Assembly: GCA_018608765.1 (NCBI GenBank)
Contig: JABAYY010000081.1
Span: forward strand, 1-37,973
DNA from: Flavobacteriaceae bacterium
Lineage (GTDB): Bacteria > Bacteroidota > Bacteroidia > Flavobacteriales > Flavobacteriaceae
Length of the DNA stretch: 37,973 bases
Reading direction: 5' to 3'
This document shows, piece by piece, positions 9,639 to 33,730 of the stretch. The notes under the pieces are model-generated. The model was given only the letters and a program-made list of their open reading frames with translations. It was not told where the DNA came from and did not search any database. Every line of letters begins with the position of its first letter. The first letter of the stretch is position 1. The position numbers were made by a program, and so were the translations under genes.

Positions 9639-11126
9639 TTAGTTAGAAATAATCAAAGTCATCCCTGGTTTTAAATTACTGTCCCAAATATCATTCCATT
9701 CTTTGAGGTTTTGAATAGAAATACCTTTTAGTTTATTTGAAATACTCCAAAGGGAATCGCCAGACTTTACTAAATATGTTGATTTTTTAGAGGAATTTTT
9801 AATGCTTTTGGTGACAGATTTTGAGTTTTTAAAAGGGTCGTCTGCAGTCGGGTTTCGGGAATAAATTGTCAGTCGTTGACCTATTTTTAAATCATTGGTT
9901 CGCAATCCGTTCCATTTTTTTATTTGACTCACTCTGACTCTGAATTTACGTGCAATTTTTCCTAAATAATCCCCTGATTTAACTTTATATCTAATTTTAG
10001 AATCGATTTTAAAAAATTGCGGCAAAGGTTTCTCGCGCGCTTCAAACTCCGCTTTGGCTGCGGCATAAATTTGGGTTTCATTTTGAACAAAATCACCAAT
10101 TTTGGAAAGAGGAAGCCTAAGCGTATAGGATTTATTATCTAAAACAGGAATAAGGTCTAATTTGTAAGATGGATTGAGGTGTTGTAGTGTTTCTATTTTG
10201 ATCGCCGTAAACTCAGCAACCTGATCCAAAGAAATCATTTGTTTGACGTGAATGGTATCCGTTGCTATGATTGGAAGTTGATTGCTTTCAACTTGAAATC
10301 CGTGAGCTTCCGCATATTCAAAAAGATAAAGAGTTGCTAAAAAAGCAGGGAGATAGCCTGCGGTTTCACTTGGAAGAAACGGTCGAATGTTCCAATAGTT
10401 TTGATAGCCTCCAGATCTTCGAATTGCCTTCGTGACATTTCCAGGGCCTGAATTATAGGCCGCTAAAGCAAGGTCCCAGTCACCAAACGTTTTATACAGG
10501 GATGCTAAGTATTTCGCAGCAGCATTGGTAGAACGTAAAGGGTCGCACCGTTCATCGACATAACTACTGACTTCAAGGCCATATTGCTTGCCTGTGGCAA
10601 ACATAAACTGCCAAAGCCCTGTAGCCCCCACGCGCGATTTTGCTCGCGGTTTTAAAGCCGATTCAACAACAGCCAAATATTTAATTTCGAAAGGAAGGTT
10701 GTGTTTGTCTAAAATTTCCTCAAACATTGGAAAGTAGTACTGACTGCGATTGATCAAGGTTTCCGTGGAGCGTTTCCGACTTTTTAAATAGCGCTTTATA
10801 ACACTTTCCAAAGCGGGGTTGTATTCGATATTGAAAGGACTTTTTGCATCAAGAAAAGCCAATCGTTTTTTGAGTGTATCCGTTGGTAACTCTGGATAAT
10901 AGATTGGCTCATAAAACTGGTTGGAAACGCTATTTGATAGCGTATCATATAATGAATTATTATACACTTCATTATACCAACGCTTTTCAATCTTCTGGAC
11001 CTTTTTAAGGCTTAGTGAATCAGAGTCAGTCGGTCGTGTATTCTCCACGTTCAAGCTGTCAATACTTTGACTGTGTAAAAGACCACTACTTAATATTCCG
11101 AAAAATAAAAAAACACTTAATTTCAT
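9639..11126 (-). CDS. LysM-containing lytic transglycosylase (MltD-like)
   Basis: This exported enzyme cleaves the glycan strand of peptidoglycan to form 1,6-anhydro-muramic ends. A signal peptide (about 1-20) is followed by a family 1 SLT domain. Its catalytic glutamate is E155 in VVESALKP, followed by SRVGATGLWQFM and AYNSGPGNV (223-231). A degenerate LysM lies at about 293-340 and two good LysM repeats at about 379-423 and 449-495, which bind peptidoglycan. The 495 residues fit MltD-type proteins. It lies 53 bases downstream of pgk without an evident promoter, so it is probably co-transcribed with it. Confidence 0.93.
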   Translation of the reverse strand: MKLSVFLFFGILSSGLLHSQSIDSLNVENTRPTDSDSLSLKKVQKIEKRWYNEVYNNSLYDTLSNSVSNQFYEPIYYPELPTDTLKKRLAFLDAKSPFNIEYNPALESVIKRYLKSRKRSTETLINRSQYYFPMFEEILDKHNLPFEIKYLAVVESALKPRAKSRVGATGLWQFMFATGKQYGLEVSSYVDERCDPLRSTNAAAKYLASLYKTFGDWDLALAAYNSGPGNVTKAIRRSGGYQNYWNIRPFLPSETAGYLPAFLATLYLFEYAEAHGFQVESNQLPIIATDTIHVKQMISLDQVAEFTAIKIETLQHLNPSYKLDLIPVLDNKSYTLRLPLSKIGDFVQNETQIYAAAKAEFEAREKPLPQFFKIDSKIRYKVKSGDYLGKIARKFRVRVSQIKKWNGLRTNDLKIGQRLTIYSRNPTADDPFKNSKSVTKSIKNSSKKSTYLVKSGDSLWSISNKLKGISIQNLKEWNDIWDSNLKPGMTLIISN

Positions 11127-14425: not shown

Positions 14426-15280
14426 CTAATCCTTGTTTTTAAGGACATAAATAAGCGACGAATACTCTCCAGACTTTAATGCCTTTAAATTTGAAAGAAA
14501 TCCCACCCAAATACTATTAAGAATTTTAAGAGACCCTGTTTTTAGTTTGTTGGAAAGCAAGCTGACATAATAAGCGTCCATAACTAAAGGGTGGGTAACA
14601 TCTAACTTCATTTGAACTTCAGAAAAAAGGTGTGAAATTGATTGCTGGGAAAAGTGCCACAAGTGTCTTGGGACGTCATAAGCCGCCCAAAAGTTTTTAA
14701 AATAATGCGCATCAAAGCTTTTAAAATTTGGGACTGCAACGACAATGCGGCCATTTGGCTTCAAAAGTTTCCGGAACGTTTTTATATCATCTTCTAAGTT
14801 TGGGAGATGCTCTAATACATGCCAAAGGGTAATAACATCAAACGATTTTTCAGGGAGCGTGTGCAGGGTAGCGGTATCAAAGACAGTCTTAGAAGCTTTT
14901 AAATTTGCGAGATTTCGCGCAGTCGGATTAGGCTCTATCCCTGTTACATCCCAACCTCTTTTTTTAGCAGCTCGTAAGAAAAAACCTGTGCCGGCCCCGA
15001 CATCCAATAACGCGGCCTGTTTTGATTGATACGGTTTTAAAAGCCGGAGTTTTCTTCGCACTGAAATAGAACGAACGGCATGGTACAAAAGATCGAAAAG
15101 AGACTTTCGCTGATTGGTGTGAGAAATATAATTAGTGTCAGAGTAGTAGTTTGAAAGCTCGGAGTCTGACGGCTTAGGATGCGTGTAAAGTAACTCTTTT
15201 GATGCGTCATAAAAGAGCTCAAAGGAGTCTCCGCTCACGGAGTAGTCTTTAAGTTTCAGATGGCTCTTATGCAATTTCAT
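14426..15280 (-). CDS. Class I SAM-dependent methyltransferase
   Basis: A 284-residue cytosolic methyltransferase of the Methyltransf_23/UbiE-like type. The SAM-binding motif LLDVGAGTGFFL lies at about 91-102. An acidic ribose-binding position follows in VTGIEPNPTA, then the post-I/II region DVITLWHVLEHLPNLEDD and LKPNGRIVVAVPNF. The N-terminal 80 residues, including YDASKELLYTHPKPS, resemble the region before the domain in methyltransferases of polysaccharide or lipid pathways, but the substrate cannot be read. It starts just after a parS-like site, 31 bases downstream of mnmG, and may be co-transcribed with it. Confidence 0.85.
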   Translation of the reverse strand: MKLHKSHLKLKDYSVSGDSFELFYDASKELLYTHPKPSDSELSNYYSDTNYISHTNQRKSLFDLLYHAVRSISVRRKLRLLKPYQSKQAALLDVGAGTGFFLRAAKKRGWDVTGIEPNPTARNLANLKASKTVFDTATLHTLPEKSFDVITLWHVLEHLPNLEDDIKTFRKLLKPNGRIVVAVPNFKSFDAHYFKNFWAAYDVPRHLWHFSQQSISHLFSEVQMKLDVTHPLVMDAYYVSLLSNKLKTGSLKILNSIWVGFLSNLKALKSGEYSSLIYVLKNKD

Positions 15281-15285
15281 AGTGA

Positions 15286-15301
15286 CGTTCCACGTGGAAC
15301 A
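15286..15301. promoter_or_regulatory. parS-type centromere site (second copy)
   Basis: The sequence cGTTCCACGTGGAACa contains the perfect 14-base palindrome GTTCCACGTGGAAC (15287-15300) of the bacterial parS family bound by ParB/Spo0J. Its outer left base is C instead of T. It lies in the 31-base gap between the mnmG stop and the methyltransferase start, so it was kept in a very small space. Confidence 0.8.
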
Positions 15302-15311
15302 ATTAGGTTAA

Positions 15312-17183
15312 CTAACGCCCCATATATACGAGTAGCACTGAAATGTCGTTTGGGGAAACCCCACTAATTCGAGAAGCTTGTGCGACCGTTGTAGGTTGTA
15401 TTTTTTTTAGTTTTTCACGCGCTTCATAACTCATAGATTTAATTTGAGAATAATCAAATCCATCAGGAATTTTGACATATTCTAACCTAGTAAGTTTGTC
15501 CGCGTTATTCTTTTCTTTGGCTATATATCCAGAATACTTCACTTGTATTTCAGCCTGCTCAATTACCTCATTGTCCAAATCATTGGATTGTACATAGGCT
15601 TCAACTGCTTCAAACTTTCGAACATCTTCGATGCCAATATTGGGTCTTGAAAATATTTTAAACATTTTGTCAGACTGACGAATGGGTTGTGAGTTTTTGC
15701 TTTCTAAAACAGGATTTGCTTCTTCTGGCTTGACGCTTTGTGTTCTAAAAAAACCGACAAATGCTTCAGCTTTTGATAGTTTTTCCTCCATTCTTTTGAG
15801 ACGTTTTTCACTTGCAATGCCAAGCTCATAACCTTTAGGTGTCAACCTAATGTCCGCATTATCTTGACGAAGAAGGGTGCGATATTCAGCTCTAGAGGTA
15901 AACATTCTATAAGGTTCTTCAGTGCCTTTGGTAATAAGGTCGTCAATGAGTACACCAATGTAAGCTTCATTTCTTTTCAACACAAAAGGCTCTTTTTCTT
16001 GGACTTTTAAGCTGGCATTAATTCCAGCCATCAATCCTTGCGATGCCGCTTCTTCGTAACCTGTCGTTCCATTGATTTGACCCGCAAAATATAAACCTTT
16101 AACCAACTTGGTTTCTAAAGAATGTAACAACTGAGTAGGAGGGAAGTAGTCGTATTCAATAGCGTATCCCGGTCTAAAAAACTTTACGTTTTCAAAACCT
16201 TTAACAGCACTTAATGCTTTAAATTGGACATCTTCTGGCAAGGAGGTTGAGAACCCATTAATATAATATTCTACAGTATTCCAACCTTCAGGTTCTACAA
16301 AGATCTGATGGCGGTCTTTATCTGCAAAACGATTTATTTTATCTTCTATAGAGGGGCAGTATCGTGGGCCTAGACTTTGGATACGTCCATTAAACATAGG
16401 AGAACGATCAAAACCTTCTCTTAATAAATTATGGACTTCTAAACTCGTGTAAGACATATGACAAGGCCGCTGATTTGTTAGGGGCTTTGTAATGTCTGAA
16501 TAAGAAAACTTCTCAGGTGCTGAATCCCCTGGCTGTTCAATCATTTTAGAAAAATCCAAGGAACGGCCATCTACTCTTGGGGGCGTTCCTGTTTTCATTC
16601 TTCCAGACTCAAAACCTAAATCAACGAGTTGTTCGGTGATGCCAGTAGCTGCCTTTTCACCAGCACGACCACCGCCAAAATTCTTATTACCTATATGAAT
16701 CAAACCATTCAAAAAGGTACCATTTGTAAGCACCACAGTTTTTGCTCGAATCTCTAATCCTAAAGAGGTTTTGACCCCTTTTACCTCGTCGCCTTCAACC
16801 ACAAGTCCAGTAACCATTTCTTGATAAAAATCAAGGTTTTTCGTTTGCTCTAGTAACAACCTCCAGTCTTCTGCAAAACGCATGCGATCACTCTGTACTC
16901 GAGGACTCCACATAGCGGGTCCTTTAGACTTGTTAAGCATCTTAAACTGAATGGCAGAAGTGTCGCTTACAATCCCGCTATACCCTCCAAGAGCATCAAT
17001 TTCACGAACGATTTGTCCTTTAGCAATTCCACCCATAGCTGGATTACACGACATTTGGGCTATGTTTTGAAGGTTCATTGTGACCAACAAGGTGTTGCTG
17101 CCCATGTTGGCAGCAGCAGCAGCAGCCTCACTTCCTGCGTGGCCGCCCCCAACTACAATAACGTCATATATTTTATCAAACAT
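15312..17183 (-). CDS. mnmG: tRNA uridine-5-carboxymethylaminomethyl(34) synthesis enzyme MnmG (GidA)
   Basis: An FAD enzyme that, with MnmE, installs the carboxymethylaminomethyl group at the wobble uridine of several tRNAs. The 623 residues are the normal length. The FAD-binding motif VVGGGHAGSEAA is at about 10-21 and the signature MSCNPAMGGIAKG at about 44-56; the GYEEAASQGLMAG segment and the C-terminal SxxDIS-type ending are present. It is flanked on both sides by parS-type palindromes. A -7 element sits 46 bases upstream, with the first parS between promoter and start, so ParB binding could affect its transcription. Confidence 0.98.
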   Translation of the reverse strand: MFDKIYDVIVVGGGHAGSEAAAAAANMGSNTLLVTMNLQNIAQMSCNPAMGGIAKGQIVREIDALGGYSGIVSDTSAIQFKMLNKSKGPAMWSPRVQSDRMRFAEDWRLLLEQTKNLDFYQEMVTGLVVEGDEVKGVKTSLGLEIRAKTVVLTNGTFLNGLIHIGNKNFGGGRAGEKAATGITEQLVDLGFESGRMKTGTPPRVDGRSLDFSKMIEQPGDSAPEKFSYSDITKPLTNQRPCHMSYTSLEVHNLLREGFDRSPMFNGRIQSLGPRYCPSIEDKINRFADKDRHQIFVEPEGWNTVEYYINGFSTSLPEDVQFKALSAVKGFENVKFFRPGYAIEYDYFPPTQLLHSLETKLVKGLYFAGQINGTTGYEEAASQGLMAGINASLKVQEKEPFVLKRNEAYIGVLIDDLITKGTEEPYRMFTSRAEYRTLLRQDNADIRLTPKGYELGIASEKRLKRMEEKLSKAEAFVGFFRTQSVKPEEANPVLESKNSQPIRQSDKMFKIFSRPNIGIEDVRKFEAVEAYVQSNDLDNEVIEQAEIQVKYSGYIAKEKNNADKLTRLEYVKIPDGFDYSQIKSMSYEAREKLKKIQPTTVAQASRISGVSPNDISVLLVYMGR

Positions 17184-17198
17184 TGATTACATTGTTAA

Positions 17199-17214
17199 TG
17201 TTCCACGTGGAACA
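17199..17214. promoter_or_regulatory. parS-type centromere site TGTTCCACGTGGAACA
   Basis: A perfect 16-base palindrome matching the conserved parS consensus of chromosomal ParABS systems (TGTTnCACGTGnAACA). It lies 15 bases upstream of the mnmG start, in the mnmG/ybeY gap. In many bacteria parS sites cluster near oriC and gidA/mnmG. ParA and ParB genes are not in this window. Confidence 0.88.
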
Positions 17215-17229
17215 AATCATTTGCAAATG

Positions 17230-17237
17230 CAAATATA
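17230..17237 (-). promoter_or_regulatory. -7 element TATATTTG upstream of mnmG
   Basis: A perfect TAnnTTTG on the minus strand in the 67-base gap between ybeY and mnmG. It stands about 16 bases from the parS palindrome, which would fall around or just after the transcription start. No -33 TTG is evident. Confidence 0.5.
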
Positions 17238-17250
17238 ATACTTTAGAAAA

Positions 17251-17664
17251 TTAATTGACACGTTGTTGAAGATAGAACTCTTCTTTAGAGCGCATAATAA
17301 CCTCCTCTGAAGAGGATTTGTCTTTATAACCACAATAATGTAGTATTCCATGAGCCATAACCCTAGAGAGCTCTGTGTCGAAACTTTGATTGAATTCATG
17401 AGCGTTTTCACGAACGCGTTCTATAGAAATAAATATTTCGCCATGAATTTCTTTACCAACAGAGTAGTCAAAACTAATCACATCCGTAAGTGTGTCGTGG
17501 TTTAGAAACTCAACATTTAATTTGTGGAGGAAGGCGTCGTCACAAAACACTATAGAAACCTCTCCTTCGTTATGGTTTTCTTGTGAAATAATAGAACTGA
17601 GCCAAGAAGCTGTAGCGTCACGGCTGGAAATTTCAAAGGGTACTTCGGAAAGAAAACTAATCAT
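17251..17664 (-). CDS. ybeY: rRNA maturation endoribonuclease YbeY
   Basis: A metal-dependent RNase acting in 16S rRNA 3' end maturation and ribosome quality control. The 137-residue protein has the UPF0054 core: LNVEFLNHDTLTDVISFDY, then GEIFIS, then the metal motif HGILHYCGYKD (105-115). In most YbeY proteins this reads HGxLHxxGYxH; here the third ligand position is Asp (D115) rather than His, which I believe is common in Bacteroidota. Its start overlaps the end of the DUF4175 gene by 8 bases, implying translational coupling. Confidence 0.94.
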   Translation of the reverse strand: MISFLSEVPFEISSRDATASWLSSIISQENHNEGEVSIVFCDDAFLHKLNVEFLNHDTLTDVISFDYSVGKEIHGEIFISIERVRENAHEFNQSFDTELSRVMAHGILHYCGYKDKSSSEEVIMRSKEEFYLQQRVN

Positions 17665-20600
17665 TTTTTAATTTAAAATATTCTTGAACTTTTTGCTTAA
17701 ATTCTTGACGCAAAGGTAAGCTTTGTCGGTTCAATATTTCAATAGTGTTGAAATATTGTTTGATGGTTTCAACGCTTGCAGGGGGCGCCTGTGAACGCTC
17801 TGCTTTGCTGGTGTTTGAAACCCGCTTTGTATCTTCACCCTGCTGCTGAACAGCCTTTTCAAGTTTTAAAAGTTGATGTTTAAGAGCTTGCATTTTCTGT
17901 AAAGAAGCTTCTGTAATACCTTGATTTATAAGGTTTTGCTCTATTTTCTCCATAGAATCTAATAGTTTTTGACCCTCACCTCCAATGCCTTTTTTATCTA
18001 TCAAATCCTGTAAAGCGTTTCGCAACTCTTGCTGCTTTTTAAAAATCTCAAACAGTTCGCCGTTGTCTCCTTCAGGGTCTTCGCCTTGAAGACTTTGACG
18101 GCCTTGTGGCCCTTGTTTTCCGGGTCGACCCTCACTACCCTCTTGACCGTTTTCTCCACTCTTACCTTCTTGACCTTCTTTTTTAGACTCTCCTTCTCCT
18201 TTTTCTGAACCCTCTTGATCTCCTTCGGGGTTTTCACCTTTTTTACCGAGCTGTTTTTCCATTTGCTTGCTCAATGCTTCTTGACTCATAATAATGTCGG
18301 GGAGTTGCATTTCGCCTTTACCTTGTCCGGGTGCCATTTGCATCTGCATTTCCATATTATCTAGGGTATTGCTTAGCATGTCAGCTAGTTTATTAGTGGC
18401 TGTAACAGTAAATTGCTGGGTACCTATTGCTTCTCGGAAACTGTTTTCTGAGAGGAGCTCAAGACTCTTGTCAATATTAAAAAAAACTTCTGTGATCTCT
18501 TTGTTGATGGACTCAGAAATCATAGGTTGACGTAATGACAAAGAGAACAGACTGTCATCAACATGTTCAAAGTGTTCGCGTAAATTACTTTGCCTTACAA
18601 GACGCTTTGCATGCCCTGTAGTGTTTGTCGTGGAAGACTGAAAACGCTTCATAAGGGCTTCTTGATCAAACGAAAATAATAATAAATTATCCAAAATTTG
18701 ACGAAGTACTTCAATGTCTTCACTCATTTGCTGACCGCCACCACCACTCATTTGTTGAGCCATTTTCTGACCCATCTGTTGCATTTTTTGAGCTGCTTTC
18801 TTTTGGCTTTTTTGAGCTTTAGAGAGTTTTTCATTTTGATCTTGAGGATCGGAGGATTCTTCTTTGTCTCCTAAATTATCGCTTGCATTCTCTTGATCCC
18901 TCTCAATTGAATCTTCTAAGTTTGAGTCGTCAGGGAGCTCAAGGGGTTTGGACAAAGCGTCATTGTCTTTTCTTAACTTTTCTAGCGCTTCGGTTAGCTC
19001 CTTAAATTCTTTGCTTAGCTGGTCTTGAGCTGCTTTGGTGTTTTTATCTTCGGATTCTTCGGCTAATTGCAACTGTTCTTTAGATAGTTCGTCTAAGGTG
19101 TTTTGAAGCTGCTCTGCTTTTTTGGACACATAATAGCGCTTTGTTAACTCCAACAACTGTTCTAAGCTGCGTTGTTTGTTTTTGTTTTGCTTTGCCATTT
19201 TTTCTAATTTTTCGGCCAAGTCTTCTTTATTAATTTTCTCTGTGATTTTTTTTAATTCCTCCAATAGTTTTTCGTCCTTTTCTAAAGCTTCTTTTTGTGC
19301 TTCAAGCCTCTTTTCCAGTTGCTCCTTAAAAGGATCTTTTTCTTTGGATTTTTCGAACTGATTTAGATTCTCCTTCATTTTTTTATTGAAGTCTTTTAAC
19401 AGCTTATCTTGCGCCTGCTGGCGTTCTAAAAAAGATTTTAATTTTTGTTGATCGCTAAAATTAAGTTGTTCCTTTTCTTTTTGGTTTTGAGAAATTTCAT
19501 TGAGATTCTTGTCTTGTTCAGACAGGGTGTTCAATGCTTTTTGAAACGCAGTAGTGAGTTCGCTTTGCTCTTCTAATTGAAGCTCTTGAATAGTGTCTTC
19601 ACTCTTTGAGTTATAGTTAAAAACGCGGCTTCTATTGGATTTGTTTTTATGAAAGGGATCATTGTCGAAAACTTCAAAATAGAGCGCGTACGCCGTATCG
19701 TCTATAAGCTCTAAGTTAGACGGAAATATCTGTGTAAACTCTTGAAAAGTTGTGGCATTAGAAGGTAAAACAAATTCCTTAATATTGGTTATATCTGAGA
19801 CAGGATAATAAAAGAGCTTTAATGCGTTAATCCCATAGTCATCTGAGATTTGACCATAAAAATAAAGAGAAGCCTGATAAGTAGAATCTTGTTTCATTTC
19901 AACCTTTATAGCGGGCATCTGGTCTTTGATTGTTTGTAATGAAAACGAAAGGTTTTCATAGTTTTTGAGCTTGTCGTTACTTGTTTGGATGGTGTAGTTT
20001 AGCGTTTCAAAGACCTGTTTCTTAAACTGAAATTTTTGGTTGGACATCTCAAAAGACAAGCGCTTGTCTTTATAAGAAAATGCAACCGAGTCTGTAGCCT
20101 TGGTAATCAACTCCCATTTTAACTTGGTGCCTTCGGGGATTGTAGCATTTCCATTATTCACAATTTTTTGATCTGACTTTCCTGTATAAGAAGGAAAGTC
20201 CAAATACATGTCAAAGCTCAGCAAGACTGGGATGGGCAACACATTAAGGCGGTAGGGTTTAGAAACCACCTTCGCAGATTCCAACTTGAAATCTATAGGG
20301 ACTTTTGGCTGTGAGAAAACGTACTCAAAAACCCCTAATTTAGTTTGCTTTAAAATATATGCTTCTTGATTAAATACAATCTGAACAGACTCTGGAACAA
20401 CAGACCCCACGGTTTTGACGACTAGAGTAAAAGGAGTGTTTTCGACAGCTTCGAGAGTGGAATTAATGACAAAAAATTCGAAAGGTGCGGGCGGCGAATA
20501 AGCGGTGTTGTAATTAACAACTCGTTTTAGGCTATCGCTAAAAATCGCTTGTTTGCCAAATGCGATACACACAAAAAGGATGAGCACAGGAGTTGCCGCA

Positions 20601-21064
20601 TATCTTAAATATTTAAGGTTCTCAGAAAAGTTAACGGCACTTTTGAAGGAAATAAGACTTAAATTATTAGATTTTTGTTCGATACTTGCTAAAAGAAATT
20701 CGGTGTGTTCCGATTGTTGATTGAGCTGAAGAACATTTAAAAGTTTGTCTTTTACTTCTGGAAAATGATCTCCGACAATTTTAGAAGCGGTTTCAAAGTC
20801 AATACCTTTTTGAATCTTAAAATACTTAGCGAGGGGGATGAAAATAAAACCATAAAACAGCACAGCTTCAAAACCAAAAACACACCAAAACAAAAGCAAG
20901 CGACCGGTAGAGCCAAGCCAAAAGAAATGCTCAATACTCAAAAGTAATAATGCGTAAAGCAATCCAGTCGCAAAAAACAATAGCAACCCTTTCAAAAGAG
21001 CACTTAGGTAATAGCGCCTGATGAAGTGTTTTAATTTTTGTTCTATAATTTGAAAGCTGTTCAA
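17657..21064 (-). CDS. DUF4175 family large membrane protein
   Basis: An 1135-residue protein of the DUF4175 family, with no known function. Two membrane helices are at about 22-45 and 55-80, and a third at about 151-172. A large beta-rich periplasmic region of roughly 350 residues follows. After that comes a long Lys/Glu/Gln-rich coiled-coil section (about 520-760). A low-complexity Gly/Glu/Gln/Lys stretch with frequent glycines, at about 910-1005, is collagen-like in feel. The C-terminus is again helical. It heads the DUF4175-ybeY-mnmG run, and the 8-base overlap with ybeY suggests one mRNA. A weak -7 match (TAATTTTA, 21086-21093) precedes it. Confidence 0.85.
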   Translation of the reverse strand: MNSFQIIEQKLKHFIRRYYLSALLKGLLLFFATGLLYALLLLSIEHFFWLGSTGRLLLFWCVFGFEAVLFYGFIFIPLAKYFKIQKGIDFETASKIVGDHFPEVKDKLLNVLQLNQQSEHTEFLLASIEQKSNNLSLISFKSAVNFSENLKYLRYAATPVLILFVCIAFGKQAIFSDSLKRVVNYNTAYSPPAPFEFFVINSTLEAVENTPFTLVVKTVGSVVPESVQIVFNQEAYILKQTKLGVFEYVFSQPKVPIDFKLESAKVVSKPYRLNVLPIPVLLSFDMYLDFPSYTGKSDQKIVNNGNATIPEGTKLKWELITKATDSVAFSYKDKRLSFEMSNQKFQFKKQVFETLNYTIQTSNDKLKNYENLSFSLQTIKDQMPAIKVEMKQDSTYQASLYFYGQISDDYGINALKLFYYPVSDITNIKEFVLPSNATTFQEFTQIFPSNLELIDDTAYALYFEVFDNDPFHKNKSNRSRVFNYNSKSEDTIQELQLEEQSELTTAFQKALNTLSEQDKNLNEISQNQKEKEQLNFSDQQKLKSFLERQQAQDKLLKDFNKKMKENLNQFEKSKEKDPFKEQLEKRLEAQKEALEKDEKLLEELKKITEKINKEDLAEKLEKMAKQNKNKQRSLEQLLELTKRYYVSKKAEQLQNTLDELSKEQLQLAEESEDKNTKAAQDQLSKEFKELTEALEKLRKDNDALSKPLELPDDSNLEDSIERDQENASDNLGDKEESSDPQDQNEKLSKAQKSQKKAAQKMQQMGQKMAQQMSGGGGQQMSEDIEVLRQILDNLLLFSFDQEALMKRFQSSTTNTTGHAKRLVRQSNLREHFEHVDDSLFSLSLRQPMISESINKEITEVFFNIDKSLELLSENSFREAIGTQQFTVTATNKLADMLSNTLDNMEMQMQMAPGQGKGEMQLPDIIMSQEALSKQMEKQLGKKGENPEGDQEGSEKGEGESKKEGQEGKSGENGQEGSEGRPGKQGPQGRQSLQGEDPEGDNGELFEIFKKQQELRNALQDLIDKKGIGGEGQKLLDSMEKIEQNLINQGITEASLQKMQALKHQLLKLEKAVQQQGEDTKRVSNTSKAERSQAPPASVETIKQYFNTIEILNRQSLPLRQEFKQKVQEYFKLKND

Positions 21065-21314
21065 CTGAGGTTTGATTTAAGAAACTAAAATTACAATAAT
21101 AATCCATATGAAAGGGCTCTTTTTTGGATAGCTCAAAAAAAACTATAAGTTTAACACTGATTTTGATCCCAAGTCTAAATCTTCAAAAGCAACTTAACCG
21201 AAGTTTTAGCGATTATTTTATTTGAATTTTAGGTGAACCTTGGGAAACCAGAGTGACACAATACATGCCAATTTGGGATGTATTATTGAACAAAACACTG
21301 ATTATAATGGAAAT

Positions 21315-22290
21315 ATGAACATTGATGTTCAAGAATTAGAGAGATTATATAAAAATAATTCGCACAAGAGTATTATAAAAAAACTCACTGAATCAAATTC
21401 TAATAATTTACCTTTTGAAATAAAATTGCATTTTGCAAGAGCTTACATTAATGAATCTCATTATGATGATGCAATAGTACTTTTAAATAGCGAAGTTGAT
21501 AAAGGAGAAAATGACGTCTTCTGGAATTATCTTCTTTGTTATGCTTACTATCAGAAAGGTAATTTTTCTGCCTATTCCCCAGATGATATTGATTTGCAAA
21601 AAGAACAATTAGAATTTTATGAAATAGCAAAGAAGTATAATGACCAAGGCTTGAACTTAGATAAATCTCACGAAAGACTTACTTTTTTAAAACCTTTTAT
21701 TAATACGTATTTAGGAAACTCTCAAAAAGCTTTAAAGCGGGCAATGAGACCAAAACCTGTAAAAGTCAAAATTACAAAAGAGGAATATGAAAGAAAATAT
21801 TCAAAAATTTTTGATGATTATTTTGATAAAATTAGTTCAGATACACTAAAATTACACCGCACAGCCGATTCTTGGAATTGGGATGAAGATTACAAGTATC
21901 TATTTATTATAGCGAAGAATAAAAATACAGATTTAGGAACAGCCCTTATGCTTTTTTGGCAAGGACAACCACTTGATTATTGGCTTCCATATACTTCTGT
22001 TATAGAGGTAGAAGAACAGAATAAAAAAGCATATGAATTATTTAGAGTTGCTGTGCCAAAATATTACTAGCAATTTTTACACAAGAGGTAGCGTAGCGTA
22101 TAATCCGAAAAGTGACAGTGGAACAAATTGGACAGAAGAGTATAACGAGCAAAATAACTCAAAGGAGTTGGAGACTATATTTTTTCAGAAAACAGAAGGT
22201 AAAAAAATAAAAAGTATCTATACAGAAGGCTTTCCTGATGGAGTGTGGAATAAGGTTGATAAATTAGATGAGCGATTTTACTACAAATAA
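21315..22290 (+). pseudogene. DUF4274-domain gene split by an apparent +1 frameshift
   Basis: The first frame encodes about 251 residues from the ATG at 21315 and stops at 22070. A TTG at 21240 would add 25 residues but looks less likely. A second frame, open from before 22033 to 22290, continues the protein sensibly (SNFYTRG..., GTNWTEEYN) from about 22069. The N-terminal part has TPR-like helices (LHFARAYINESHYDDAIVLL). A DUF4274 core at about 180-215 reads LHRTADSWNWDED and DLGTALMLFW. The shift lies near the TAC-TAG-C at 22065-22071 and looks like one inserted base. Base use is visibly more AT-rich than in the neighbours. It could be a dead gene, a sequencing error or, less likely, recoding. 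DUF4274 function is unknown; such genes often occur in accessory clusters. Confidence 0.65.
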
Positions 22291-22425
22291 ACTGGTTACA
22301 ACACAATGTATAAGTAATAGCGGATTGAGTGCTAACTCGAACTGTTTTTCATTTAATTATAGTATAATTTGAGCCGAAAAGTAGTCGAATAAAACCGCTA
22401 CTACTCATACACAAAACCGTTAGCT
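22291..22425. repeat. Long imperfect hairpin, attC-like cassette end
   Basis: An 18-base arm at 22306-22323 pairs with 22395-22412: 15 Watson-Crick pairs plus three A/C mismatches, which become G-T/G-U wobble pairs on the minus strand, so the bottom strand folds fully. An outer GGTT/AACC pair (22294-22297 with 22415-22418) extends it, and the element ends in CCGTTAGC, close to the integron GTTRRRY box. The loop includes AATTATAgTATAATT (22355-22369). It lies directly after the broken DUF4274 gene, as attC sites follow their cassette gene. No integrase gene is in the window, so attC identity is an inference. Confidence 0.45.
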
Positions 22426-22512
22426 AAACACAAAAGTTTAAAAAAAACACCCGCCTTGAAAAACTCTTAAATACTCGTTGATTTAAGCAGATCAAAAACG
22501 CCGGCTATTTCT

Positions 22513-22543
22513 TTGGGGAATGCGTTCAGCAATTCTATCTTTG
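22513..22543 (+). promoter_or_regulatory. Promoter of gltX (TTG, 20-base spacer, TATCTTTG)
   Basis: The best complete Bacteroidota promoter in the window: TTG at 22513-22515, a 20-base spacer, and a perfect TATCTTTG at 22536-22543, 18 bases before the gltX ATG. Its position downstream of the hairpin shows gltX does not depend on read-through from the DUF4274 gene. Confidence 0.75.
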
Positions 22544-22561
22544 TGGCACTAATACAAGACC

Positions 22562-24079
22562 ATGAATACACCGATTCGCGTACGATTTGCACCAAGCCCT
22601 ACAGGGCCACTCCATATTGGAGGAGTTCGAACTGCTCTTTTTAATTATCTATTTGCTAAAAAACACGGCGGGACTTTTGTGCTTCGTATCGAAGATACCG
22701 ATCAAAAACGCTATGTTGACAGTGCTGAAGACTATATAACAAACGCACTCAACTGGTGCAACATTCCTTTTGATGAAGGCCCCGGAAAAGACGGTGGTTT
22801 TGGTCCGTACAGACAAAGTGAGCGCAAGCATTTGTACAGGCAATATGTAGATTTACTGATTGAAAACAACAAAGCCTATTATGCTTTTGACACGGCTGAG
22901 GCACTGGACGAAGAGCGCAAAAACCACGAAGCAAAGGGCAAAACCTTTATCTATAACTGGCATAACAGAACCCGAGGCAGACTCATAAATTCATTGGTCT
23001 TATCCAAAGAAGAAGTCGCTGAAAAGATAGCAAATGGCGAGGATTATGTCGTACGGTTTTTAGCACCTCAAGATGAAACTCTGGAGCTTACCGACTTGAT
23101 TAGAGGCACAATAAAAATTGACACCAATACCCTTGACGATAAAGTATTGTTCAAATCAGATGGCATGCCCACCTATCACCTTGCCAATGTCGTAGATGAT
23201 TATTTAATGAAAATATCACACGTCATTCGTGGAGAAGAGTGGTTGCCTTCCTTAGCGCTGCACCAATTACTTTACAATGCGTTTGGGTGGGAAGCACCTG
23301 AATTTGCGCACTTGCCCCTCATATTAAAACCAACGGGAAAAGGAAAGCTAAGCAAGCGCGATGGCGATAAGCTAGGATTTCCAGTATTTCCATTAAATTG
23401 GGAAGATTCTGCAACCAACAGTGTGTCAAAAGGCTACAAAGAAAGCGGCTACTTTCCGGAAGCTGTGGTCAATTTCTTAGCTTTCTTAGGCTGGAATCCT
23501 GGTACAGAACAAGAACTTTTTTCATTAAGTGAACTCGTTGAAGCCTTTGATTTAAAAAATGTCAATAAGGCCGGCGCACGCTTTGACCCAGATAAGACAA
23601 AATGGTTTAACCACCAATACATGCAAAAGGCAACAGTTGAAACATTAACCGAAACATTTATAAACACAACGCCAGGGCTTGAGTCTATTGACCCTGGTTA
23701 TGTAGAGCTTACTGTAAACCTCATCAAAGAACGCGCAACCTTCCCATCAGAGTTTTGGGGATTGAGTCATTACTTTTTTGAGGCCCCTGAAAATTTCGCA
23801 GAGGCAGCACTTAAAAAAGCCTGGAAAGAACATTCTAAAGATTTAATGATTCAACTAATTAGCGAACTTGAAGCCGCTGACGACACTAGTGTAGACACCC
23901 TTCAAGCCGCCGTAAAAGGATGGATCACCAAAAACGAAATCGGCTTTGGGAAAATAATGATGCCATTAAGGGTGGCGCTTGTAGGCGCACTAGAGGGTGT
24001 TGATGTTTTTGACATCATCTATCTGATAGGAAAAACCGAAACAATCAAACGGATTCAATCCCTCATTGACCGTCATTAA
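22562..24079 (+). CDS. gltX: Glutamyl-tRNA synthetase
   Basis: A class I aminoacyl-tRNA synthetase charging tRNA-Glu. The 505-residue protein has the ATP-binding signature PSPTGPLHIGG (11-21), the RIEDTDQKR segment (42-50), and KLSKR (262-266) in the KMSKS loop. The anticodon-binding helical domain occupies the C-terminal third. The length is typical of bacterial GluRS. It has its own promoter and is followed after 71 bases by lepA, which has a further promoter. I see nothing to suggest a GlnRS or a truncated tRNA-modifying paralogue. Confidence 0.97.
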   Translation: MNTPIRVRFAPSPTGPLHIGGVRTALFNYLFAKKHGGTFVLRIEDTDQKRYVDSAEDYITNALNWCNIPFDEGPGKDGGFGPYRQSERKHLYRQYVDLLIENNKAYYAFDTAEALDEERKNHEAKGKTFIYNWHNRTRGRLINSLVLSKEEVAEKIANGEDYVVRFLAPQDETLELTDLIRGTIKIDTNTLDDKVLFKSDGMPTYHLANVVDDYLMKISHVIRGEEWLPSLALHQLLYNAFGWEAPEFAHLPLILKPTGKGKLSKRDGDKLGFPVFPLNWEDSATNSVSKGYKESGYFPEAVVNFLAFLGWNPGTEQELFSLSELVEAFDLKNVNKAGARFDPDKTKWFNHQYMQKATVETLTETFINTTPGLESIDPGYVELTVNLIKERATFPSEFWGLSHYFFEAPENFAEAALKKAWKEHSKDLMIQLISELEAADDTSVDTLQAAVKGWITKNEIGFGKIMMPLRVALVGALEGVDVFDIIYLIGKTETIKRIQSLIDRH

Positions 24080-33382: not shown

Positions 33383-33730
33383 ATGGAACGTTTAAAAGGA
33401 AAAAAGCAAATAGAGCAGTTGTTCATTACTGGAGTTTCGGTGGGGGCATTTCCTTTAAGAATGGTGTATTTAAAAGGTGGTGACAAACATTTGGTGGGGG
33501 TTTCTGTGAGCAAAAAACATTTTAAAAATGCGGTGGATCGCAACCGAATTAAACGCCTTTTAAGGGTGGCTGTAGAAAAACAACTCGCTATGACACTAGA
33601 AAAAATGGAATCGAAATTCTGTTTAATGGTTTTATATGTTGGAAAAGAAATGCCCAACTCACCTCAACTAAAAGAGCAGTTTGAATTTCTAATAAAACGT
33701 TTTAATAAAAAAGAAGCGCATGAACTTTAG
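33383..33730 (+). CDS. rnpA: Ribonuclease P protein component
   Basis: The protein subunit of RNase P, which removes 5' leaders from tRNA precursors. The 115-residue protein has the basic signature VDRNRIKRLLR (51-61) and the preceding LVGVSVSKKHFKNA segment. Length and charge are typical. In most bacteria rnpA follows dnaA and rpmH; here it sits between an M1 and an S41 peptidase gene, 3 bases from one and overlapping the other by 11 bases. Its expression is therefore tied to an envelope-protease run. Confidence 0.93.
   Translation: MERLKGKKQIEQLFITGVSVGAFPLRMVYLKGGDKHLVGVSVSKKHFKNAVDRNRIKRLLRVAVEKQLAMTLEKMESKFCLMVLYVGKEMPNSPQLKEQFEFLIKRFNKKEAHEL

Follow-up and report, generated by a model that had tools for sequence, protein, structure and literature searches.

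Two probable parS sites flank mnmG in a Flavobacteriaceae bacterium, and matching sites recur beside mnmG across Bacteroidota

The DNA analysed here (the window) is one entire contig (C12) of 37,973 bases, taken from a Flavobacteriaceae assembly of 2.07 Mb in 105 contigs that is 87% complete and 6.6% contaminated. It carries mnmG (gidA), which encodes a tRNA uridine modification enzyme, between a ybeY-like gene upstream and a SAM methyltransferase-like gene downstream (Table 1). The spaces on the two sides of mnmG are short, 31 bp between its end at 15312 and the methyltransferase start at 15280, and 67 bp between its start at 17183 and the end of ybeY at 17251, and each holds one copy of the 14-bp core GTTCCACGTGGAAC, at 15287-15300 and 17200-17213, respectively. 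An earlier note on this DNA had described a perfect 16-base palindrome at 17199-17214, a repeat of its 14-base core at 15287-15300, and the placement of both in very short gaps on either side of mnmG, all of which is exact in the sequence. The core of the downstream copy stops 6 bp before the start codon of the methyltransferase-like gene. The upstream copy is preceded by TATATTTG, which matches TANNTTTG, the consensus of the Bacteroidota -7 promoter element; following the promoter rule of the phylum, this copy would presumably lie within the first transcribed bases.

Table 1. Features of the window around mnmG
Feature	Coordinates	Strand	Remarks
SAM methyltransferase-like gene	14426..15280	-	284 aa ORF; name by sequence reading
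Probable parS site 2, CGTTCCACGTGGAACA	15286..15301		14-bp core 15287-15300; between mnmG stop and methyltransferase start; exact downstream site in 69/80 related loci
mnmG (gidA), tRNA uridine modification enzyme	15312..17183	-	623 aa ORF; TIGR00136, 844.8 bits, above cut-off
Probable parS site 1, TGTTCCACGTGGAACA	17199..17214		perfect 16-bp palindrome; just 5' of mnmG start codon; exact upstream site in 75/80 related loci
TATATTTG, -7-like element matching TANNTTTG	17230..17237	-	site 1 starts 15 bp downstream
ybeY-like gene, upstream of mnmG	17251..17664	-	137 aa ORF; name by sequence reading
Candidate origin-side turning region	18001..22562		cumulative GC skew lowest at 18-19 kb; predominant gene strand switches from minus to plus at about 21.1-22.6 kb

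Palindromes of this length are common by chance, and the window contains 7 of any kind against 3.7 expected, which is unremarkable for any single one. The signal therefore lies in the exactness of the two copies, their recurrence, their place and their genome-wide count rather than in the palindrome as such. At the composition of the window, about 0.003 exact copies of GTTCCACGTGGAAC would be expected over 2.07 Mb; two are observed in this 87% complete assembly, both flanking mnmG and none elsewhere. Thus the whole-genome scan for the 14-mer that the earlier note had proposed, with scattered copies as the outcome that would speak against it, finds no scatter. When up to two mismatches are allowed, 2 further places appear genome-wide, and a control with the reversed pattern gives 1 match. 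Within the window alone the count is only mildly unusual, as the 3 matches found at up to three mismatches were reached in 6 of 100 shuffles.

Two candidates for a third site were considered and rejected. The window match at 10363-10376 is coding sequence, part of a conserved L-P-[RS]-E-T stretch (L-P-S-E-T in the window) of a LysM/transglycosylase-like gene. Similarly, the one-mismatch form CTTCCACGTGAAAC, which recurs 4.5-8.4 kb from mnmG, consists of L-P-R-E-T codons in the nine loci checked (L011, L018, L019, L020, L021, L023, L027, L039 and L042). The L-P-R-E-T codons of the LysM/transglycosylase-like gene are thus a trap for parS motif scans.

The pairing of these sites recurs in most of the family genomes sampled. 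In a sample of 60 genomes from 60 genera, the source genome among them, the pattern GTTNCACGTGNAAC, which the core fits, is present in 59 genomes and occurs exactly twice in 51; the sample contains 125 such sites altogether, whereas the reversed control pattern occurs 6 times. Where the places of the sites were listed (35 genomes), the sites lie 1.9-2.5 kb apart on one contig in 29; the remaining six comprise two genomes with one site, two with the sites split over two contigs, one with three sites within 1.6 kb (G023), and one that is incompletely listed. mnmG itself is missing from the assembly of the sole genome lacking sites (G005), and in a genome with one site (G035) the mnmG match reaches merely 19.5 bits, so that both shortfalls look like assembly gaps.

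A second view comes from the best 80 mnmG loci of named genomes, a set biased to close relatives in which 62 loci are longer than 21 kb. Exact sites on both sides of mnmG are found in 66 of these 80 loci (counts for the single sides are given in Table 1), and none of the 186 exact sites is more than 1.5 kb from mnmG. Without exception, these 186 sites have C/T and G/A at the two free positions of the pattern; the search pattern itself dictates the other twelve core bases, and around the 75 nearest upstream sites the flanking columns reach an agreement of only 0.39-0.87. Two loci (L074 and L090) have no site at up to one mismatch.

Some loci depart from the common arrangement. Most relatives have one exact copy upstream of mnmG, and three Flavobacterium loci (L029, L033 and L035) have six or seven, in arrays that extend over about 0.3-1.1 kb and look like a growing centromere; in L029, four extra copies centred on CACATG stand beside the exact array. 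The centre CACATG in place of CACGTG, as in TGTTCCACATGGAACA, occurs in L025 (Kordia), L029, L046, L062 and L065, and it is the only form on the upstream side in L025 and L046. These CACATG-centred sites, which like other one-mismatch sites were left out of the exact-site counts, possibly reflect a shift in ParB preference.

The tie to mnmG reaches well beyond the family. All 31 phylum genomes searched contain mnmG, and 29 of the 30 loci fetched, representing 16 of 17 families, have an exact site no farther than 1.5 kb from the gene. The exception, G072, has two sites on a different contig from mnmG. Exact sites on both sides of the gene are found in 10 of the 30 loci, and outside the family some sites lie farther away: 2 of 4 in G089 (at 7 and 13 kb), 4 of 7 in G062 (at 5 kb) and 1 of 2 in G064. 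Taken together, these counts indicate that adjacency to mnmG is general, and that strict bracketing and confinement are mainly features of the closer relatives. Neighbouring genes are also kept: among the 80 related loci, 77 contain a relative of the ybeY-like gene, 74 one of the methyltransferase gene, 60 one of a large DUF4175-like gene and 59 one of gltX (names by reading), and the link of the sites with mnmG may therefore be in part ordinary origin synteny.

Two further observations concern gene content in the window. A plus-strand ORF of 276 aa at 21240-22070 lies in an A+T-rich stretch (29% GC in the 21-22 kb bin), where the DUF4175-like gene and gltX are 1.5 kb apart; these two genes are separated by less than 300 bp in 27 of 51 related loci and by at least 1 kb in 21, and the ORF may be an insertion. 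An rnpA-like gene (name by reading) is located at 33383-33730, 16 kb from mnmG. In many phyla, rnpA and mnmG belong to one origin cluster.

A protein that could bind the sites is encoded in the same genome. The earlier note had named absence of a parB gene as an outcome that would count against parS, and a check for the gene found one ParB_N protein of 299 aa. Its gene lies on a different contig (C20) from the sites, directly behind a gene of 253 aa read as ParA from its Walker sequence; the parAB pair thus does not adjoin the sites, adjacency of the two being common for parS without defining it. The protein aligns with solved ParB structures, best with 7bnk (1.5e-49) and also with Caulobacter ParB (6t1f). 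In Caulobacter numbering it keeps Q162, G170, K171, R173, N178, G201 and R204, which match contact residues of ParB described in PMC7383237, and it has K at position 172 (S in Caulobacter), Y at 179 and K at 184. According to the same paper, in the parts cited here, R173 and G201 are absolutely conserved in ParB and altered in Noc (Q173 and R201), and K at position 184 is permissive for NBS binding. Both R173 and G201 are present in the 30 best-scoring family ParBs, as are Q162, N178 and R204; the pattern that locates the helix, passed by 30 of 30, itself demands G170 and R173 and does not demand all of the others. A parB gene was found in 58 of the 60 family genomes, and in all 51 of those with a completeness of 90% or more and a contamination of 5% or less. 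The contact residues of the source ParB are thus of the parS type, though position 172 is K.

Where these sites lie with respect to the replication origin was assessed in relatives, the source genome being in 105 contigs. Five single-contig family genomes were sampled at 20 places of 20 kb each, giving a resolution of 130-195 kb, and in all five, dividing the chromosome into two arms by GC skew works best with the switch inside the interval containing parS. By a second scoring, the parS interval ranks 1, 1, 1, 2 and 1 of 20 (the 2 belonging to G056), the ranks for dnaA being 6, 10, 18, 17 and 16 and those for parB 20, 10, 11, 13 and 11. Agreement is poorer for gene-strand bias than for GC skew, with the best split 77 (G059), 238 (G014), 1088 (G032), 247 (G056) and 791 kb (G023) from the sites. 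In an uninterrupted 400 kb of G032, skew reaches its minimum 76-78 kb off the sites and is almost flat in between. Across eight single-contig family genomes, dnaA is located 931-1919 kb from the sites in every case, and the best parB 839-1465 kb from them. In the window itself the skew minimum and the turn in gene direction lie close to mnmG (Table 1), the skew of the window being confounded with gene direction. The skew switch at the sites in relatives, the skew minimum of the window and the turn in gene direction together make it very probable that the window is origin-proximal.

The position of oriC is given by these data only as a neighbourhood, because searches for DnaA boxes and for a turning point in averaged skew gave no sharp place. 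At up to one mismatch the window contains 14 DnaA boxes against 10.9 expected, which is no more than chance, and in the 400 kb around mnmG of G032 three boxes are nowhere clustered in a stretch of 800 bp. Skew averaged around mnmG over 62 loci has no sharp turning point, with the minima of single loci scattered over the whole stretch.

Conservation in the family and the phylum, together with a parS-type ParB in the same genome, supports the identification of the palindromes as parS, as had been proposed when the pair was first noticed, and on these sequence grounds they are very probably parS sites. Their fit to the pattern, the small number of clustered copies and the position near the origin in relatives are all those of chromosomal parS. 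Their position beside mnmG could also be read in terms of transcription: the palindromes would be operators of a dedicated regulator, or of ParB acting as one, with control of mnmG and the methyltransferase gene as their main job. The geometry has some appeal, as site 1 follows the -7-like element by 15 bp, the core of site 2 ends 6 bp short of the methyltransferase start, and the nearest upstream site precedes the mnmG start by 6 to 127 bp in the 75 related loci that have one. That same range, however, means that the distance to mnmG varies widely, and of 79 related loci only 26 have TANNTTTG in the 200 bp that precede mnmG, so that the placement behind such a promoter element is not general. 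Moreover, arrays of six or seven exact upstream copies, over as much as about 1.1 kb, are more easily understood as a centromere than as an operator; the palindromes have the consensus sequence of ParB sites, and in relatives the locus lies at the skew switch. Operators are accordingly a very unlikely main function, and modulation of mnmG or the methyltransferase gene by ParB is putative, being only compatible with the geometry.

It could further be supposed that the sites are unbound relics of an ancestral origin cluster of mnmG and parAB, now slowly decaying. The present distance of parB (0.84-1.47 Mb in 8 of 8 genomes) is what such a history would leave behind, and the downstream site is indeed mismatched in part of the Tenacibaculum and Polaribacter loci. 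Decay is difficult to reconcile, however, with exact cores in 59 of 60 genera, with a C/T and G/A rule that admits no exception among the 186 exact sites, with the multiplication of sites in some Flavobacterium, or with a ParB that keeps R173 and G201 in 30 of 30 cases, and we consider relics highly improbable. That the palindromes serve as RNA hairpins in the mnmG transcript, as an attenuator or a processing site, is scarcely credible: inverted repeats do lie in or beside the predicted transcript, but asymmetric copies in the mnmG sense (which are not independent of one another) include 44 with the pair-breaking C-A and 23 with the wobble-keeping T-G, the opposite of what hairpin selection should give.

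Chromosomal parS of the ParABS system is thus the closest known relative of the two sites. The core fits the parS consensus TGTTTCACGTGAAACA quoted in PMC10197239, its two variable places being occupied by C/T and G/A, and, as in ParABS, the copies are few, clustered and on the origin side of the chromosome in relatives; unlike the usual arrangement, the sites of this family are far from both parB and dnaA (8 of 8 genomes) and beside mnmG. That paper describes parS clusters of 12 gut bacteria, Bacteroides caecimuris included, and reports that parS clusters at the origin, which was placed partly by parS itself, and that dnaA is not always there. The passages drawn on here do not name a link with mnmG; the present arrangement was traced through 60 genera of a single family and, in the phylum, through 16 of 17 families. 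Noc, with its NBS sites, belongs to the same protein superfamily, and the ParB described here has the K184 that is permissive for NBS (PMC7383237). However, this ParB and 30 of 30 relatives carry R173 and G201 rather than the Q173 and R201 of Noc, and the sites are not scattered. Among titles and the beginnings of abstracts in the open-licence literature, none evidently ties parS to mnmG in Bacteroidota; Livny and others (2007) may have listed such sites earlier in their parS survey.

The earlier note had also suggested that the two sites form a ParB loading zone near the origin. The near-origin part is supported by the GC-skew switch in five of five complete relatives, and a loading zone for the usual partner, Smc-ScpAB, seems unlikely, because neither an Smc above cut-off nor ScpA was found in the 60 family genomes. 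With up to nine first-look candidates scored per genome, no protein in the 60 family genomes exceeded the cut-off for Smc (TIGR02168), the best reaching 46.7 against 567.35 bits, and ScpA (PF02616) was matched in none of the 60; the condensin search across these genomes consisted of these two families. In the source genome, only two proteins, of 365 and 553 aa, exceed the cut-off for SMC_N, and by size they fit RecF and RecN. The usual partner of ParB, Smc-ScpAB, therefore seems to be lacking in Flavobacteriaceae. PMC10197239, as far as it is cited here, likewise mentions two Bacteroidetes that have no homologues of known condensins. Across the same 60 genomes, parB and parS have been kept in the family despite the lack of any detected Smc or ScpA.

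The joint reading that we favour with high confidence is that the two palindromes are chromosomal parS, at which ParB would load and from which it would spread, with ParA segregating the origins. By analogy with ParB of other species, the protein encoded behind the ParA-like gene elsewhere in the genome would bind both palindromes, load there as a CTP-dependent clamp and spread across mnmG and its neighbours to build a partition complex, after which ParA would separate the newly copied origin regions. On this view the adjacency to mnmG would persist because the centromere kept its origin-proximal place next to that gene, and dnaA and parAB would be the ones that ended up elsewhere. Although the kind of element is already known, its tie to mnmG across the phylum, its distance from dnaA and parB in the family, and the lack of any detected Smc or ScpA make the case more than routine.

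For studies of the phylum, the pair of sites offers a one-motif marker of the origin region that should be useful in fragmented assemblies, and in eight single-contig relatives the parS motif is a better guide to the origin than dnaA. A bolder and rather doubtful proposal is that the centromere has been locked to mnmG across Bacteroidota through deep time, with dnaA and parAB elsewhere and canonical Smc-ScpAB lost at least in Flavobacteriaceae, and that the lock consists of a coupling between ParB and mnmG or of condensin loading. If this were true, ParB occupancy and mnmG expression would be coupled, and tRNA modification would be tied to origin copy number or segregation; alternatively, a yet-unknown condensin would be loaded at the two sites. 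Because ParB and parS persist in these genomes although neither Smc nor ScpA could be detected, the role that ParB may play without Smc can be tested at a defined two-site centromere.
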